From: Chloroflexota bacterium
GTDB taxonomy: Bacteria > Chloroflexota > Dormibacteria > Dormibacterales > Dormibacteraceae
Length of the DNA: 60,902 bases
NCBI GenBank assembly: GCA_005882115.1
Contig: VBEG01000026.1
Location: 1-60,902, forward strand
Reading direction: 5' to 3'
The notes beneath the pieces were generated by a model. That model was not told where the DNA came from and did not search any database. It saw only the letters and a program-made list of their open reading frames with translations. Shown in pieces: positions 903-45,259 of the stretch. Position numbers and translations under genes: made by a program. How positions within the stretch are numbered: position 1 is the stretch's first letter; each line of letters opens with the position of its first letter.

Positions 903-1178
903 ATGGAAAGTATGCGATGGGTGGGAGTCGACGTTCACGCCAAAGAGTCAGTGGCGGCCGTGCTCGACCAGACGACCGGGGAGGTCAGCACGCATCGAAT
1001 CGCGGGTCGCCCTGACGAGGTCCTGGACTGGCTGGCCACGGTGGCCCAGCCTTTTCGCGCGGTGTATGAGGCGGCCCAACACCACCTAACAGCGTGGCTG
1101 GTTACAGCAACCAGTGGCGATTCGGGATTTGATGAATTCCAACCTGAATTCGCCAAATGGCGTAACCTAAGCGAGTGA
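903..1178 (+). pseudogene. IS110-family transposase, N-terminal remnant
   Basis: The first ~55 residues match the start of the DEDD (RuvC-like) domain of IS110 transposases: WVGVDVHAKES with the first catalytic Asp, then a beta strand (VAAVLDQTTGEV), the stretch RIAGRPDEVLDWLA, and VYEA carrying the expected acidic residue. Intact members are about 340-400 aa with a C-terminal Ser-containing domain. Here similarity stops near base 1072, and the frame runs through unrelated, more A+T-rich sequence to a stop at 1176-1178. The element is therefore 3'-truncated and dead. A good ribosome binding site (GGGAGGCG) precedes the ATG. The next gene starts at 1175, so the truncation point is the promoter region of the defence-like module. 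Confidence 0.75.
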
Positions 1179-1768
1179 TTAGTCGAACCGAGGTGGTCTG
1201 GCGCCATCTCCTCGTCGCCGCACTTGATCAGGACATCAGGCGGAGCTCGCTGACTAAGTTGAGCGCCGAGCTCGAATTACCCATGTCCACGATCCACAAG
1301 GCTCTCGAGCGCCCCCGAGCCATCGGTGCCATACGCGGCGGTGCCAGCGGCCTGCGCGTTTTGGATCCGAAGCGGCTCCAACTCATGTGGGCGGCGCAGC
1401 GCGACCTCGAGAGAGACATCGTCTACGCAACGAGAGTACCGATGACAGTCAGCGAGATCGAAGCTCGACTTCCGGCCTCGGCCATCCCAACCGCGTACAC
1501 GGCATTTGTTCTGCATGAAGGACGCAACGTCATCGCAGATTACGAGCAGGTGGTCGTTTACGCGGATGCGACTGACGTGCGGCGGCGATTTCCGCGTCGG
1601 CGCGGCGAGCCTAACCTGGTGATTCTCAAGCCCGATCCTTTGCTGAGTAGGTACGGAAGAGTGGCGCCGCGCTGCCAGGTGTATGTCGACCTCTTCAACC
1701 TGCCGACGTGGCAGGCACAGCGATTCCTTGAGGCGCTTCACCGCGACTTGCTGGGCGATGTCGCCTGA
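1175..1768 (+). CDS. Winged-helix protein, AbiEi-like (first gene of WH-NTase-ATPase module)
   Basis: 197 aa from GTG 1175. Residues ~10-65 form a helix-turn-helix/wing (LTKLSAELELPMSTIHKALER then GAIRGG..GLRVLDP). The C-terminal half (residues ~70-197) alternates beta strands and ends in CQVYVDLFNLP followed by a long helix, like the C-terminal domain of AbiEi-type antitoxins and related winged-helix partners of nucleotidyltransferases. It overlaps the nucleotidyltransferase start by 11 bases, so the two are translationally coupled. By analogy with type IV (AbiE) toxin-antitoxin pairs it may neutralise or repress its partner. The pairing is seen; the antitoxin role is inferred. It could equally be a specificity or sensor subunit for the downstream ATPase. 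Confidence 0.7.
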   Translation: MISRTEVVWRHLLVAALDQDIRRSSLTKLSAELELPMSTIHKALERPRAIGAIRGGASGLRVLDPKRLQLMWAAQRDLERDIVYATRVPMTVSEIEARLPASAIPTAYTAFVLHEGRNVIADYEQVVVYADATDVRRRFPRRRGEPNLVILKPDPLLSRYGRVAPRCQVYVDLFNLPTWQAQRFLEALHRDLLGDVA

Positions 1769-2438
1769 GCGCCGATCTCGGCCGGACGAGGATGACGTTC
1801 AGGCGGTGATGCAGAGGTTCGTTCGGGACTTTCCTGACGCCGTCCTCATCGGCGGCTGGGCCACATATTTAAGGACGCGGGTCGCGAAGAGCCATGACAT
1901 CGACATCATCGTCGACCATGCCACCCTGGCCAAGTTACGGGCAAAGTTCCAACTGTCACCTAGCCACCACATCAGTGGCCGGAAATTCGAGCTCAATGTC
2001 GAGGGCGTCGGGGTTGACGTGTATCCGGCCTATCAGTCCAAACTCGGTCAACGGTTGCAGATTCCAGTCGAAGTTTTGATGAACTACACAGAGAATATCG
2101 ATCGCACCAGGATTCTCACAACAGAGGCTCAGTTCGTGGCCAAAATGGCCGCCCTGCTCGACCGACCGGATACGCTGCCCGGTGAGAAGGATCGGCGGGA
2201 GTTGTGGGAACTCATCAACTCCGGCCCGGGTGTCAATTTCAACGTCGTGGCTGGAATCCTGGGTGCTGGAGGTTGGGAGGCCGCGCGTCGATCGGAGCTG
2301 CTCGGCCAGACCTTTGACCTCCTCGGCGAGACGGCCAATCTGGACAGGCAAGATCGGGTCACTCTCAGGCTGAATCGAGCTCATGCCCTCGAGGCCGCGC
2401 GATCGGTCGAAGGCCGCGACCAAGAACTCGAAAGGTGA
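1758..2438 (+). CDS. Nucleotidyltransferase, AbiEii/DUF6036-like
   Basis: 226 aa from ATG 1758; an open frame extends upstream but overlaps the previous gene too far. The pol-beta nucleotidyltransferase core is clear: GGWA (residues 32-35), S45-x-D47-x-D49 (SHDIDIIV) and a third acidic residue at D87 (GVGVDVYP), giving the three metal-binding Asp residues. A later segment KMAALLDRP..EKDRREL matches the Lys/Asp-rich helix typical of AbiEii and DUF6036 proteins. Such enzymes attach nucleotides to tRNA or protein; AbiEii-type toxins arrest growth. All catalytic residues are present, so it should be active. It lies between a winged-helix protein and a GHKL ATPase with overlapping reading frames at both ends. 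Confidence 0.8.
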   Translation: MSPERRSRPDEDDVQAVMQRFVRDFPDAVLIGGWATYLRTRVAKSHDIDIIVDHATLAKLRAKFQLSPSHHISGRKFELNVEGVGVDVYPAYQSKLGQRLQIPVEVLMNYTENIDRTRILTTEAQFVAKMAALLDRPDTLPGEKDRRELWELINSGPGVNFNVVAGILGAGGWEAARRSELLGQTFDLLGETANLDRQDRVTLRLNRAHALEAARSVEGRDQELER

Positions 2439-3933
2439 ATCGGGTATAGATTTCGGGCTGGAAATGGCCCAGCGCGTGACCGTCCGCGAGCGGATCGACC
2501 CGGCCATCACGGCATCGCTCTTCGCCAACTACCGCTCTTCCGCCGATGCAGTCATGGAACTGGTCGACAACGCGATCGACTCACGACTCAAGGGCAGTGC
2601 TCTCAATGTCCTGCTCCAAGTCCATGCCTCGTACTTTGTCATCGAGACTCGGGGCGGAGAGGGGATGGGGCCGGCCGAGCTCGAACGCCACTACCTGCGC
2701 TGGGGCGGATCACCCAAGCGGGGACGCAACCTGCTGGGCCAGTACGGTCAAGGCGGCAAAGCTGCGATTGGCCATCTGGGCACGAGCTTCACCGTCGAAG
2801 CCAGCCGACCGGGTGACGAGATGGCGTGGCGGTTTGCCGACGCCGATTACCGCGATCGCACCAAGCTCAAGACGTACGAACTCAAGACGGTTGTCAAGCG
2901 CGTGCCGTTGGAGGAGGGCTTCGTCCGGATCCGAATCGACGGGGTCGACAGGCGTGTAGACCCCCGCCGTCTGGGCGCTCGACTCAGCGACACCTATCGT
3001 CCGCTGATCGTGGGAGCTCTGTTGAAGATGTCGATCAATGGCGTCCGCGTCGAGGCGCTTCCTATCAACTTCCAGGAGGAGCATCGCTTCGCAGTCCGCG
3101 CCGCAGGCACGACCATCCGCGGCTGGTACGGTCTTGCCGAGCCTGAAGGCCGCGGCGTCGATTACGTACCCGGCCTGCGTTGTTACAAGCTCGGCCGGCT
3201 GATCGCCGGCGGCGAGTTCTTCGGACACCCGAACGCTGTCCAGGTCTCAGGAATGGCCCGCCTCGTAGGGGAGATCGATCTGGCACCCGTCCCGCTGATG
3301 ATGAACAAGAGCGATTTCGCCCGAGATGGCGCCGAGTGGACTGCGGTGGAGCATCGAATGCACGCGCTGCTGGCGCCGATCGCCAAGCGCCTCGCCGAAG
3401 ATGAATTGGCGCCGCCCCCGGCGTCTGCCCTCAAGACCGCGGAACAAGTTAGACGGCTGCTCAGCCAGGTTCTCAGGCTCACTGAACGTGAGGAAGCTTT
3501 CTCCGGACTTGCGGCGGCCCGTACGCCGGCCGCCCAGGCTCGCGAGCCATCGACGGGACGACACGCAGCCCAACTCGAGAGCCCACCAGCGCCACCTCGT
3601 TTGCCGACCGCGGACGAGCAGAAGCGCCGTGGCTTTGGCCAGGTCGTCGTGCGCCCACTCGATCCGGCAATTCGCAGCCAAACAGTAATCGAGCGTGAGG
3701 TCACCACGGTGGTGATTAACTCACGTCACCCGCTTTTCCTGAAGCGCGGTGGTGACATCTGGTATCAGCTTGAAACCGCGGCCCGCGAAGTCTTTAAGTC
3801 CTTTGAGGGCGCCAGCATCGGTGAGTACGATCGGCGGGTCAACGAGGTGATCTTGCTCGCGTTCCAGCTTCGAGCCCGCCGCCGCCAAGCGCGGTCGCGT
3901 CGATCAGAAGCGCAGTTGCCACTTATCAGTTGA
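2383..3933 (+). CDS. GHKL-fold ATPase, MORC/Hsp90-like (third gene of the module)
   Basis: 516 aa from ATG 2383; an ATG at 2464 (residue 28) would avoid a 56-base overlap with the nucleotidyltransferase and is an equally good start. The Bergerat fold is evident: N-box MELVDNAIDS (E59, N63), a G1-like GGEGM (residues 91-95) and a G2/lid segment GQYGQGGKAAIG (119-130). A transducer-like region follows to about residue 330, then a low-complexity Ala/Pro linker (~350-410) and a basic C-terminal helix (RARRRQARSRR). Oddly, the Asp that normally opens the G1 box (DxGxGM) and reads the adenine is Arg90. MORC/Hsp90-like ATPases occur in restriction-like and phage-defence loci. Partnership with a nucleotidyltransferase is not a type I recognise. 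Confidence 0.8.
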   Translation: MPSRPRDRSKAATKNSKGESGIDFGLEMAQRVTVRERIDPAITASLFANYRSSADAVMELVDNAIDSRLKGSALNVLLQVHASYFVIETRGGEGMGPAELERHYLRWGGSPKRGRNLLGQYGQGGKAAIGHLGTSFTVEASRPGDEMAWRFADADYRDRTKLKTYELKTVVKRVPLEEGFVRIRIDGVDRRVDPRRLGARLSDTYRPLIVGALLKMSINGVRVEALPINFQEEHRFAVRAAGTTIRGWYGLAEPEGRGVDYVPGLRCYKLGRLIAGGEFFGHPNAVQVSGMARLVGEIDLAPVPLMMNKSDFARDGAEWTAVEHRMHALLAPIAKRLAEDELAPPPASALKTAEQVRRLLSQVLRLTEREEAFSGLAAARTPAAQAREPSTGRHAAQLESPPAPPRLPTADEQKRRGFGQVVVRPLDPAIRSQTVIEREVTTVVINSRHPLFLKRGGDIWYQLETAAREVFKSFEGASIGEYDRRVNEVILLAFQLRARRRQARSRRSEAQLPLIS

Positions 3934-4007
3934 CGCGACGACTCCATGGCGCTTTCCGTCGCGATTTTCGAGCATGACCGGTGAAGTTGAAGCGCGCCAG
4001 TTTTGTA

Positions 4008-4141
4008 CAGCAACGTCCATGGCAAACCGCGATATTTCGCGGCACGTGGCGGCACTCAGCGAATTCGGACTGCGATTTCTGAACGGCGGCGGCGATCTGT
4101 TAACCGCAAGGTTCAGGATTCGAGTCCCTGTCCCGGAGCCA
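4008..4141 (+). repeat. tRNA-Asn-like dispersed repeat, copy A
   Basis: About 134 bp between the ATPase gene and the nitrilase gene. It begins CAGCAACG, carries CACTCAGCGAATTCGG in the middle, then ATTTCTGAACGGCGGCGGCG, and ends CTGTTAACCGCAAGGTTC..TTCGAGTC..CCCGGAGCCA. The last ~60 bases look like the anticodon arm (GTT), T-arm and acceptor 3' strand of a tRNA-Asn with encoded CCA. The 5' tRNA half does not pair, so it is not a functional tRNA. The same unit recurs near 34371, 38398, 45000 and 60018 in the same orientation. The remaining bases of 3934-4170 hold nothing else I can name. Confidence 0.7.
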
Positions 4142-4170
4142 AATTCGGTCGGCCGCGTGCGCGGCCGTTC

Positions 4171-5109
4171 TCATGCCTTCACGGCTCTATCTGGACGAGT
4201 GACCTTGGCAGCCGGCTGCGCGGTCAGCTGGCCGTAGAGCTCCGGCCGCCGCCACTTGAGGACACCGGGGATCGTTCGATATGGCGCCGGCACGATCAAC
4301 TCCTCGTCGGTCTCGCGTAGCCAGCGGACTCGATCGAGGTCCAGGACTGCGCTGAGCAATCCAGGCTCGTGGCTCTCGCAAAGCACTCGCTCAGGGGAGG
4401 CGATCATCGCGATGCCGGCGGTCAGGTGGGATCCCGTCGGCGGCAACTTCAGGTCGGCCTGCCGGTACTTGCGTCCGAACTCCTCTGGAAACAGGTGCAC
4501 TGTGGTCGCCGTGTACATCAAGTTCTCGATCGCCCGCGCCCGCACCAGCGTGCGCCAGTTGTCGGTGTAGCCGAGCTCATCGATCAGAAGGCCTGCGTGC
4601 ATCAGGCAAACCTCGGCTCCCTTCAGCGCGAGGATGCGTGCGATCTCAGGCACGAACACCTCGCTGCAGACGAGCAGGCCGAGCTTGCCCCAACCCATGT
4701 CGAACACGGGGAACTGATCGGCCTCTTCGTACTTGAAGTCCCAAAGGTCACCACCCGGATAGATGTATGGGCCCACCGGGTGCGTGCGGTGGTAGCGACC
4801 CTTGACGGTGCCGTCCGCCCCGATCACGACCGCAATGATGTGGAAGCGGTTGCTGCCAGGCCCGGTCTCCTCGGATGTGCCGGCGACTACCGACACGTGG
4901 TTCTTCTTCGCCGCGGCCGACAGCGGTCCGATCGCGTCGAACCGTCCTCGTTCCCGGTAGGGGCCGGGGAAGTTCTCGGGGAAGAGGAGAAGGTCGCACT
5001 CGGTCGCGCCCGCCTGAGCGACCAGGCGTATCGCCTCTTCGAGGTTGCGCCGCTCATCCGCCCCGTACCAGGTGCGAGGTTGCGCCACTGCGAGCCTGAT
5101 CAGTGCCAT
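4171..5109 (-). CDS. Carbon-nitrogen hydrolase (nitrilase superfamily amidase)
   Basis: 312 aa, the usual length for the superfamily. The nucleophile region is LGLLVCSEVFVPE (C148, with E150 in place of the more common Asp) and the general-base Glu is E45 (LLFPENFPGP). The catalytic Lys normally found in YRKxH appears as Arg108 in GRYHRTHP, which is unusual. Members hydrolyse nitriles, amides or N-carbamoyl compounds in the cytosol. It is the last gene of an operon with a BMP-type ABC importer (17-base gap after the second permease), so it probably acts on the imported compound, perhaps as a ureido or amide hydrolase. The exact substrate cannot be read from sequence. If the Arg abolishes catalysis, it may be a binding protein or use a modified mechanism. 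Confidence 0.85.
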   Translation of the reverse strand: MALIRLAVAQPRTWYGADERRNLEEAIRLVAQAGATECDLLLFPENFPGPYRERGRFDAIGPLSAAAKKNHVSVVAGTSEETGPGSNRFHIIAVVIGADGTVKGRYHRTHPVGPYIYPGGDLWDFKYEEADQFPVFDMGWGKLGLLVCSEVFVPEIARILALKGAEVCLMHAGLLIDELGYTDNWRTLVRARAIENLMYTATTVHLFPEEFGRKYRQADLKLPPTGSHLTAGIAMIASPERVLCESHEPGLLSAVLDLDRVRWLRETDEELIVPAPYRTIPGVLKWRRPELYGQLTAQPAAKVTRPDRAVKA

Positions 5110-34370: not shown

Positions 34371-34503
34371 GCAGCAACGCTGGCAGCAAGCGGTGCAATT
34401 GGCGTCACTCGACGGCACCCAGCGAATTCAGACCACCATGCCTGAACGGGTCGCAGCCGTATGTCAACCGCAAGGTTCAAGGTTCGAATCCCTGCTCCGC
34501 AGA
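34371..34503 (+). repeat. tRNA-Asn-like dispersed repeat, copy B (diverged)
   Basis: Starts GCAGCAACGCTGG, has GGCACCCAGCGAATTCAG in the middle and CAACCGCAAGGTTCAAGG then TTCGAATCCCTG at the 3' end, so the order of blocks matches the other copies. The anticodon-loop GTTAA reads GTCAA and the acceptor end is altered (CTCCGCAGACA). Its 5' half is closest to the truncated copy at 60018. It separates the large catabolic region from the acyl-CoA module. Confidence 0.6.
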
Positions 34504-34632
34504 CACTCTGGACCGGAGCCAAAGGTCGATCTCAATGCGGCTTTCTGAGCTACAGAGCCTCGTCGGGTGACAGCTCGACGCCAGACGAGGCTCACGCCAA
34601 CGCTCGCTGCGCTCGCGCGAAACCAACGTGGC

Positions 34633-38397: not shown

Positions 38398-38534
38398 GCA
38401 GCAACGCCGGCGCTAAACCATGGCAAACGGCGGCACTCAGCGGTGCTCAGCGAATTCGCGGCGCTATTTCTGAACGGGGTTCAGCGATCTGTTAACCGCA
38501 AGGTTCAGGGGTTCGAGTCCCTGTCCCGGAGCCA
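38398..38534 (+). repeat. tRNA-Asn-like dispersed repeat, copy C
   Basis: About 137 bp after the CoA-transferase gene. Blocks in order are CAGCAACGCCGG, ATGGCAAACGGCGGCACTCA, CTCAGCGAATTCG, ATTTCTGAACGG, CTGTTAACCGCAAGGTTC, GTTCGAGTCCCTGTCCCGGAGCCA split by one base change from copy A. The tRNA-like 3' half has a GTT anticodon loop, a T-loop TTCGAGT and an encoded CCA. The 5' half does not fold with it. The 148 bases that follow (38535-38682) are non-coding. Confidence 0.7.
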
Positions 38535-38682
38535 ATCTGAATTCAGTCTGAGGAGCGACCCCTGGCATTGCGAAGGCCCAGGCTTGACTTGACGCTTTGG
38601 CCGGCTCTAGGACGGGATTGACCGCCACATTCGCGCGCCGCAGCGCTGCCCAATAACCGAACGTTGCAGGCAGCCGCGAAAA

Positions 38683-44999: not shown

Positions 45000-45131
45000 C
45001 AACGCCGATGGCAAACCGCAGGACTTGGCGTTACGCAGCGGCACTTAGCGAATTGGGCCCGGGATTTCTGAACCGGCGGTGGCGATCTGTTAACCGCAAG
45101 GTTCGGAGTTCGAATCTCCGTCCCGGAGCCA
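45000..45131 (+). repeat. tRNA-Asn-like dispersed repeat, copy D (best tRNA-like 3' half)
   Basis: ACAACGCCGATGGCAAACCG, GCGGCACTTAGCGAATTGG, ATTTCTGAACCGGCGG, CTGTTAACCGCAAGGTTC, then CGGAG-TTCGAAT-CTCCG, a perfect 5-bp T-arm, and TCCCGGAGCCA. CCCGGGA at 45058-45064 pairs with six of seven acceptor bases, giving a 74-base unit 45058-45131 of tRNA size with anticodon loop CTGTTAA (Asn). The D-arm and anticodon stem do not pair well, so I regard it as a decayed tRNA-Asn or tRNA-derived element rather than a working gene. Confidence 0.7.
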
Positions 45132-45259
45132 CACTCCGTCTGCAAGTTCGCCTCCTAGGCGACAAAACGCCTTCGGCTCCTGTGCGACAGACCTTCGGCT
45201 GAATTCGCTACACCTACTTCGGTACCTACGCGACATTCCCCGGCCATGAGGGAGATGAG

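Follow-up and report, generated by a model that had tools for sequence, protein, structure and literature searches.

Two neighbouring units at one locus: a divergent AbiE/MenAT-like gene pair and a solo MORC-type ATPase, probably inherited separately, at a rearranged edge on a Dormibacterota contig

Three closely spaced genes on contig VBEG01000026.1 of a soil bacterium of the Dormibacterota/Chloroflexota (GenBank assembly GCA_005882115.1; 3.36 Mb in 147 contigs) raise the question of whether a winged-helix protein (WH), a nucleotidyltransferase (NT) and a Bergerat-fold ATPase make up one system or are separate units that happen to lie side by side. The window, which is the complete contig (G000:C89) of 60,902 nt, had been given a preliminary description in which the three frames overlap and form one operon, the combination is not recognised among named defence systems, and the ATPase might act as an infection sensor that sets the nucleotidyltransferase free. 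We found that the three genes are real and that the triplet is not a unit. With a probability of roughly three in four, we read the locus as two independent units at a rearranged site, namely a divergent AbiE/MenAT-type toxin–antitoxin (TA) pair and a separately inherited solo MORC ATPase. The features concerned are as follows.

1127..1158, no strand: imperfect palindrome ATTTGATGAATTCCAACCTGAATTCGCCAAAT directly 5′ of WH, a candidate autoregulatory operator that scores only marginally, near the 95th percentile of shuffled sequences
1175..1768, plus strand: WH, winged-helix protein of 197 aa with GTG start, putative antitoxin/autorepressor (paired homologues in L023, 50%, and L024, 30%; N-terminal winged helix-turn-helix, wHTH, in the AlphaFold2 model)
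1758..2438, plus strand: NT, AbiEii/MenT-like nucleotidyltransferase of 226 aa, putative toxin (motifs, predicted fold, profile link)
2445..2451, plus strand: TATAGAT box, a conserved −10-like element of the ATPase gene, past the NT stop codon at 2436–2438 (conservation)
2464..3933, plus strand: solo prokaryotic MORC-like ATPase of 489 aa with GHKL, S5 and conserved C-terminal domains (Pfam, profiles, conserved start)

The open frames run from 1175 to 1768 (WH), from 1758 to 2438 (NT) and from 2383 or 2464 to 3933 (ATPase), about where they had been placed, and the 11-base overlap of WH and NT (1758–1768) was confirmed, making this pair bicistronic. The second overlap, of up to 56 bases, depends on ATG 2383, which gives a 5′ extension without conservation: relatives L014–L017, and L033–L038 in nucleotide comparison, start at the codon that corresponds to ATG 2464, and an in-frame TAG lies directly upstream of this codon in genomes G079 and G207. 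Because the gene starts at ATG 2464, the 56-base overlap is an artefact of ATG 2383, and NT and ATPase are 25 bases apart. The TATAGAT box lies 12 bases 5′ of ATG 2464 and at a near-equal distance in L033, L034, L035, L037 and L038, reads TATAAAT in L036 and is degraded in L014. A sigma-70 consensus scan of the region gave no matches, and it is thus by conservation that the box is recognised. Hence the proposal of one operon holds for WH and NT, but not for the ATPase, which has its own conserved box.

Is the ATPase nevertheless tied to the pair in other genomes? Of 301 genomes sampled from the phylum, 10 carry it; 21 loci of genome contigs plus G027 give 22 other loci in all, none of which has an intact WH or NT alongside. 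In its nearest relatives, L033 and L034, whose ATPase proteins are 92% and 90% identical to that of the window, NT is cut to its 3′ end upstream of the ATPase, beginning at the equivalent of window position 2382 in L033 and 2273 in L034, where an inverted NT piece is present as well. The ATPase changes relative to the window fall at codon positions 1/2/3 in numbers of 28/19/130 (L033) and 29/22/140 (L034), and therefore the ATPase is under purifying selection without NT. Window, L033 and L034 group with full support in the tree, so that, together with the remnants, the adjacency of NT and ATPase goes back to the ancestor of this small clade and no further, and the ATPase can do without it. The two NT remnants of L034 (5694–5976) adjoin each other in both orientations, which suggests an inversion or duplication while the pair decayed.

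The nucleotidyltransferase has a partner of its own. Intact NT occurs in 3 of 400 sampled genomes, those of the window, G247 (L023) and G131 (L024); in the latter two it is preceded by a WH homologue in the same order as in the window, and the contig of the pair differs from the contig bearing that genome's ATPase gene. The three catalytic residues named earlier, D47, D49 and D87 (numbered from ATG 1758), are all in place and do not vary among three homologues. In AbiEii/DUF1814 proteins, motifs I–II are defined as hG[G/S]-x-DhD with a spacing of x15 (9–13 in pol-beta), motif III by a Lys and motif IV as +DxxD (PMC3985639). NT reads G32G33-x13-D47xD49 for motifs I–II, with D87 as third Asp, K129MAALLDR136 for motif III and K144DRRE for motif IV. 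Motifs I–II are IGG-x13-DID in the window and L023 and LGG-x13-DVD in L024; motif III is KMAALLDR in the window and KLAALLDR and KLCAWIDR in the homologues, with the aromatic residue in L024 only; and motif IV is KDRQD in L023 and KDEAD in L024, the last D being replaced by E in the window. By hhalign, the NT profile matched an alignment of eight AbiEii proteins from the phylum at 74% (E 2.7e-5) across motifs I–IV, and a linker protein (L058/L109) matches both the NT profile (6.3e-8) and PF08843, the AbiEii family, above its cut-off (1.6e-10).

The AlphaFold2 model of NT is confident, with a predicted local distance difference test score (pLDDT) of 86, and its best fold match is the Mycobacterium tuberculosis toxin MenT1 (Foldseek E 4.1e-6; Z 14.3; root-mean-square deviation 3.2 over 165 residues), followed by TM1012, ANT(2'') and MenT3 at Z 11.8–13.3. 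The key residues of MenT1 are T39, D41, K137 and D152 (PMC10435456), and S45, D47, K129 and D145 of NT, mapped to them by motif order, would follow in the same order with similar spacing. Phosphorylation at the phospho-acceptor Ser/Thr silences MenT toxins (PMC11375011). Because Ser45, invariant in four sequences, is conserved at this position, an active-site phosphorylation is suggested as a route by which NT may be neutralised. Taken together, motifs I–IV, the MenT1-like fold, the AbiEii profile link and the conserved pairing support the likeness to type IV TA pairs that had been noted for WH and NT. The family DUF6036 was considered for NT and rejected: the match to PF19502 (E 0.0022, 18.3 bits) does not reach the cut-off of 23.6, the hhalign match is 28% over 49 columns only, and the partner genes of DUF6036 families are different proteins.

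In WH, AlphaFold2 predicts a confident wHTH at residues 1–75, of CRP type (Z 10.8), and a low-confidence C-terminal half with pLDDT mostly below 60, and the fold search is informative for the wHTH only. The protein had been called AbiEi-like, which is borne out by its architecture and the gene order but not by its sequence; we label it a putative antitoxin here because of its place before NT, its wHTH and the nature of its partner, and not because of homology. At the position matching 1127–1158, L024 has another palindrome and L023 has none. At L024 8421–11071 (G131:C32), the WH–NT pair stands back to back, on opposite strands, with a canonical AbiEi_4/AbiEii pair, so that two NTase TA-type modules adjoin each other.

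The third protein has the Bergerat/GHKL domain ascribed to it (Pfam HATPase_c_3, PF13589, 1.2e-9), and a profile of ten members compared with solved structures placed MORC3 (1.7e-8) and MORC4 (2.1e-6) first, with a second, weaker stretch of the MORC3 alignment over the S5 region. The ExxxN box and the G2 Lys are kept in the family. In other GHKL ATPases, the Asp of the DxGxG box contacts adenine; it is absent in all 23 members (window plus 22 homologues), which have xGGxGM instead, and the MORC3 alignment displays the substitution. The same 23 members all carry GhXhhpXXRhl, a motif specific to MORC proteins (PMC2292703). With the prokaryotic MORC and paraMORC proteins of Iyer et al. (2008, PMC2292703) the ATPase thus shares GHKL plus S5, the ExxxN box, this motif and the similarity to MORC3/MORC4, and with paraMORC2 an ExxxH-type stretch; it differs in the replaced Asp and, from the published MORC operons, in standing alone, with no helicase, methylase or nuclease partner in its immediate flanks. 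Among the families listed for the immediate neighbours of the ATPase, no helicase, methylase or restriction nuclease recurs, and DUF559 is found in two near neighbours only. By analogy with the MORC family, the protein probably acts as an ATP-gated clamp on DNA. Its named relatives are metagenome-assembled genomes (MAGs) that carry the labels Chloroflexi, Candidatus Dormibacterota or similar ones, and in the searches made the family is confined to Chloroflexota/Dormibacterota. Phage records gave no match to the ATPase, and plasmid records gave one weak match (Haladaptatus, 24%). Viral contigs scanned with ATPase, NT and WH contained relatives of none, and the plasmid records held no match to WH and one weak match to NT (Rhizobium), with no WH recognised upstream. 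A solo MORC family with a replaced adenine-contacting Asp may offer a test of prokaryotic MORC roles outside restriction–modification.

How do other explanations fare against these data? For a true three-gene defence system, with the MORC ATPase as an infection sensor that frees the nucleotidyltransferase, speak the common strand, the tight spacing and an adjacency that is ancestral to the window, L033 and L034. Against it, an intact triplet is present at 0 of the 22 other ATPase loci, NT is reduced with differing breakpoints in two relatives whose ATPase is intact and under selection, in G247 and G131 the contig with the pair is not the one with the ATPase, and the ATPase gene has a −10-like box of its own, so that we consider this system hardly credible. 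Rare adjacency of ATPase and NTase homologues had been named in advance as evidence against a new triplet, and outside this one clade the two were indeed not found side by side; a keyword search of the literature for an anti-phage operon of NTase and GHKL ATPase returned no paper. Reading the locus as two units keeps the adjacency of two known gene kinds off the list of new defence systems with three components.

A different association is raised by TA genes of several kinds near the ATPase in its relatives:

L035 5271-5898: MazE-like gene plus Fic/Doc beside the ATPase
L036 794-1455 and L042 5257-5864: CopG–PIN beside the ATPase
L045 5516-5896, L046 1199-1579, L047 5492-5872 and L050 7880-8275: homologous PIN beside the ATPase

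The MORC ATPase could thus associate with exchangeable TA modules (AbiE-like, CopG–PIN, MazE/Doc, solo PIN), either through shared variable islands or with the modules as effector or addiction partner. Differing TA-type neighbours lie within two genes of it in the window, L035, L036, L042, L045–L047 and L050; PIN genes occupy 6 of 85 near positions and 2 of 115 farther ones (one-sided Fisher P of 0.06); and about 0.24 PIN genes would be expected near the ATPase at the genome-wide rate, calculated on the basis of 87 PIN genes across 11 genomes with the gene total estimated from genome size, where three independent contexts were seen. However, types and orientations vary and the PINs of L045–L047 and L050 are one homologous family. 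Because this is a post hoc observation and TA genes are missing from about half of the contexts, we treat it as a lead only and the association as unlikely. Its bolder form, in which a lineage-specific solo MORC family whose adenine-binding box is altered has time and again taken up exchangeable TA modules, or been kept in the genome by them, the toxin module being a replaceable effector of a DNA-sensing clamp, seems to us very improbable.

Several observations weigh against the favoured reading of a TA pair next to an independent ATPase. No domain was assigned to the C-terminal half of WH; WH and its homologues have no AbiEi Pfam match up to E 1, and hhalign of WH with AbiEi gives a probability of 3%, over the HTH only. 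NT stays under the Pfam cut-off of every NTase family (for PF08843, no match is listed for the window protein, and the homologues score E 0.0045 and 0.024, under the cut-off), and its motif I–II spacing of 13 falls in the general pol-beta range where AbiEii has 15. The searches gave only three intact WH–NT pairs. Since the ancestor shared by three sequenced relatives already had NT next to the ATPase, co-expression by read-through may also be possible. Finally, NT matches the fold of the antibiotic-modifying ANT(2'') (ANT(2'')-Ia structures at Z 12.2–12.8) and that of MenT3 (11.8–11.9) to a similar degree, and NT of L024 scores above the cut-off with PF10706. These last two points favour a regulator paired with a small-molecule, drug-modifying nucleotidyltransferase instead of a TA pair; but AbiEii motif III and, with E for its last D in the window, motif IV are present, the best fold match is MenT1 and the profile link leads to AbiEii, and we regard a drug-modifying pair as a doubtful alternative.

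If the pair is a TA module, WH would be made first and bind its own promoter through the winged helix, and would neutralise NT, probably through its C-terminal domain. On loss of WH, NT would transfer nucleotides to an RNA target through its metal-binding Asp site, the target most likely being tRNA 3′ ends as for MenT toxins, and growth would halt; neutralisation may also involve phosphorylation of the active site. The solo MORC-type ATPase would be expressed from a promoter of its own and passed on independently of the pair.

Among known systems, AbiE type IV pairs (COG5340/DUF1814; Dy et al. 2014, PMC3985639) likewise have a wHTH regulator gene followed, with a short overlap, by an NTase gene with motifs I–IV, whereas NT has the shorter I–II spacing and, in the window, the E in motif IV, and WH has no sequence match to AbiEi families. 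The COG4861–COG4849 pair, also a regulator followed by an NTase, whose motif III is KLxAaxxR (PMC3985639), is arranged alike with a similar motif III, as compared by description. From MenAT1/MenAT3 (PMC10435456, PMC11375011), MenT1 is nearest to NT in fold (Z 14.3), at ∼20% identity in the fold alignment, whereas WH, with 197 aa and a wHTH, is unlike the 68-aa MenA1. The pair would extend the AbiE/MenAT-type pairs by a divergent branch from Chloroflexota/Dormibacterota, whose putative toxin is potentially testable.

The surroundings contain these further features:

903..1178, plus strand: remnant of an IS110-type transposase N-terminus, truncated, about residues 7–67 (ORF list; PF01548, E 7.5e-4, under the curated Pfam cut-off)
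4005..4147, plus strand: dispersed tRNA-like repeat that ends with a T-arm-like hairpin, the 3′ half of an acceptor and CCA, at a synteny breakpoint (sequence comparison)
4171..5109, minus strand: carbon–nitrogen hydrolase, last gene of a conserved transporter operon (PF00795, 4e-32)

Both the IS110 remnant, whose stop overlaps the WH start, and the tRNA-like repeat had been noted before, and both are present; the defence island inferred from them is not borne out. The left flank of the locus is the contig end, near which a 149-aa open frame (98–547) has no Pfam or PADLOC match. Those flanking genes that were tested either belong to a nucleoside-type (PnrA-type) ABC transporter operon, which with its carbon–nitrogen hydrolase lies downstream of the ATPase gene, or encode metabolic enzymes. 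PADLOC gave no matches for these flanking genes, matched NT and ATPase to no model and WH only weakly.

Core synteny with G400, G401 and G404 resumes at ∼4150–4208, marked by the hydrolase gene. In those three genomes the transporter operon runs on into a cupin/HTH regulator, which is absent from the window when 4150–4208 is compared with L117, L118 and L119, where the regulator ends the operon. Because synteny breaks here beside the tRNA-like repeat and the regulator is gone, the locus is a rearranged edge. An assembly artefact was judged unlikely because two further MAGs have NT remnants at the corresponding junction. The repeat may have driven the rearrangement and is possibly a tRNA-derived mobile or recombinogenic element. 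A tRNA gene at 4090–4140 was rejected, as ARAGORN and Rfam give no tRNA and the sequence is a dispersed repeat. The repeat spans ∼85–140 bases and finishes with the T-arm-like hairpin followed by TCCCGGAGCCA (tRNA 3′ half plus CCA). It has at least nine copies in the genome of the window, with copies, besides 4005–4147, at window 34423–34505, 38451–38535 and 45049–45143 and on contigs C84, C66 and C72 of G000, and it is also found in G400 and G404, just beyond the cupin/HTH regulator.

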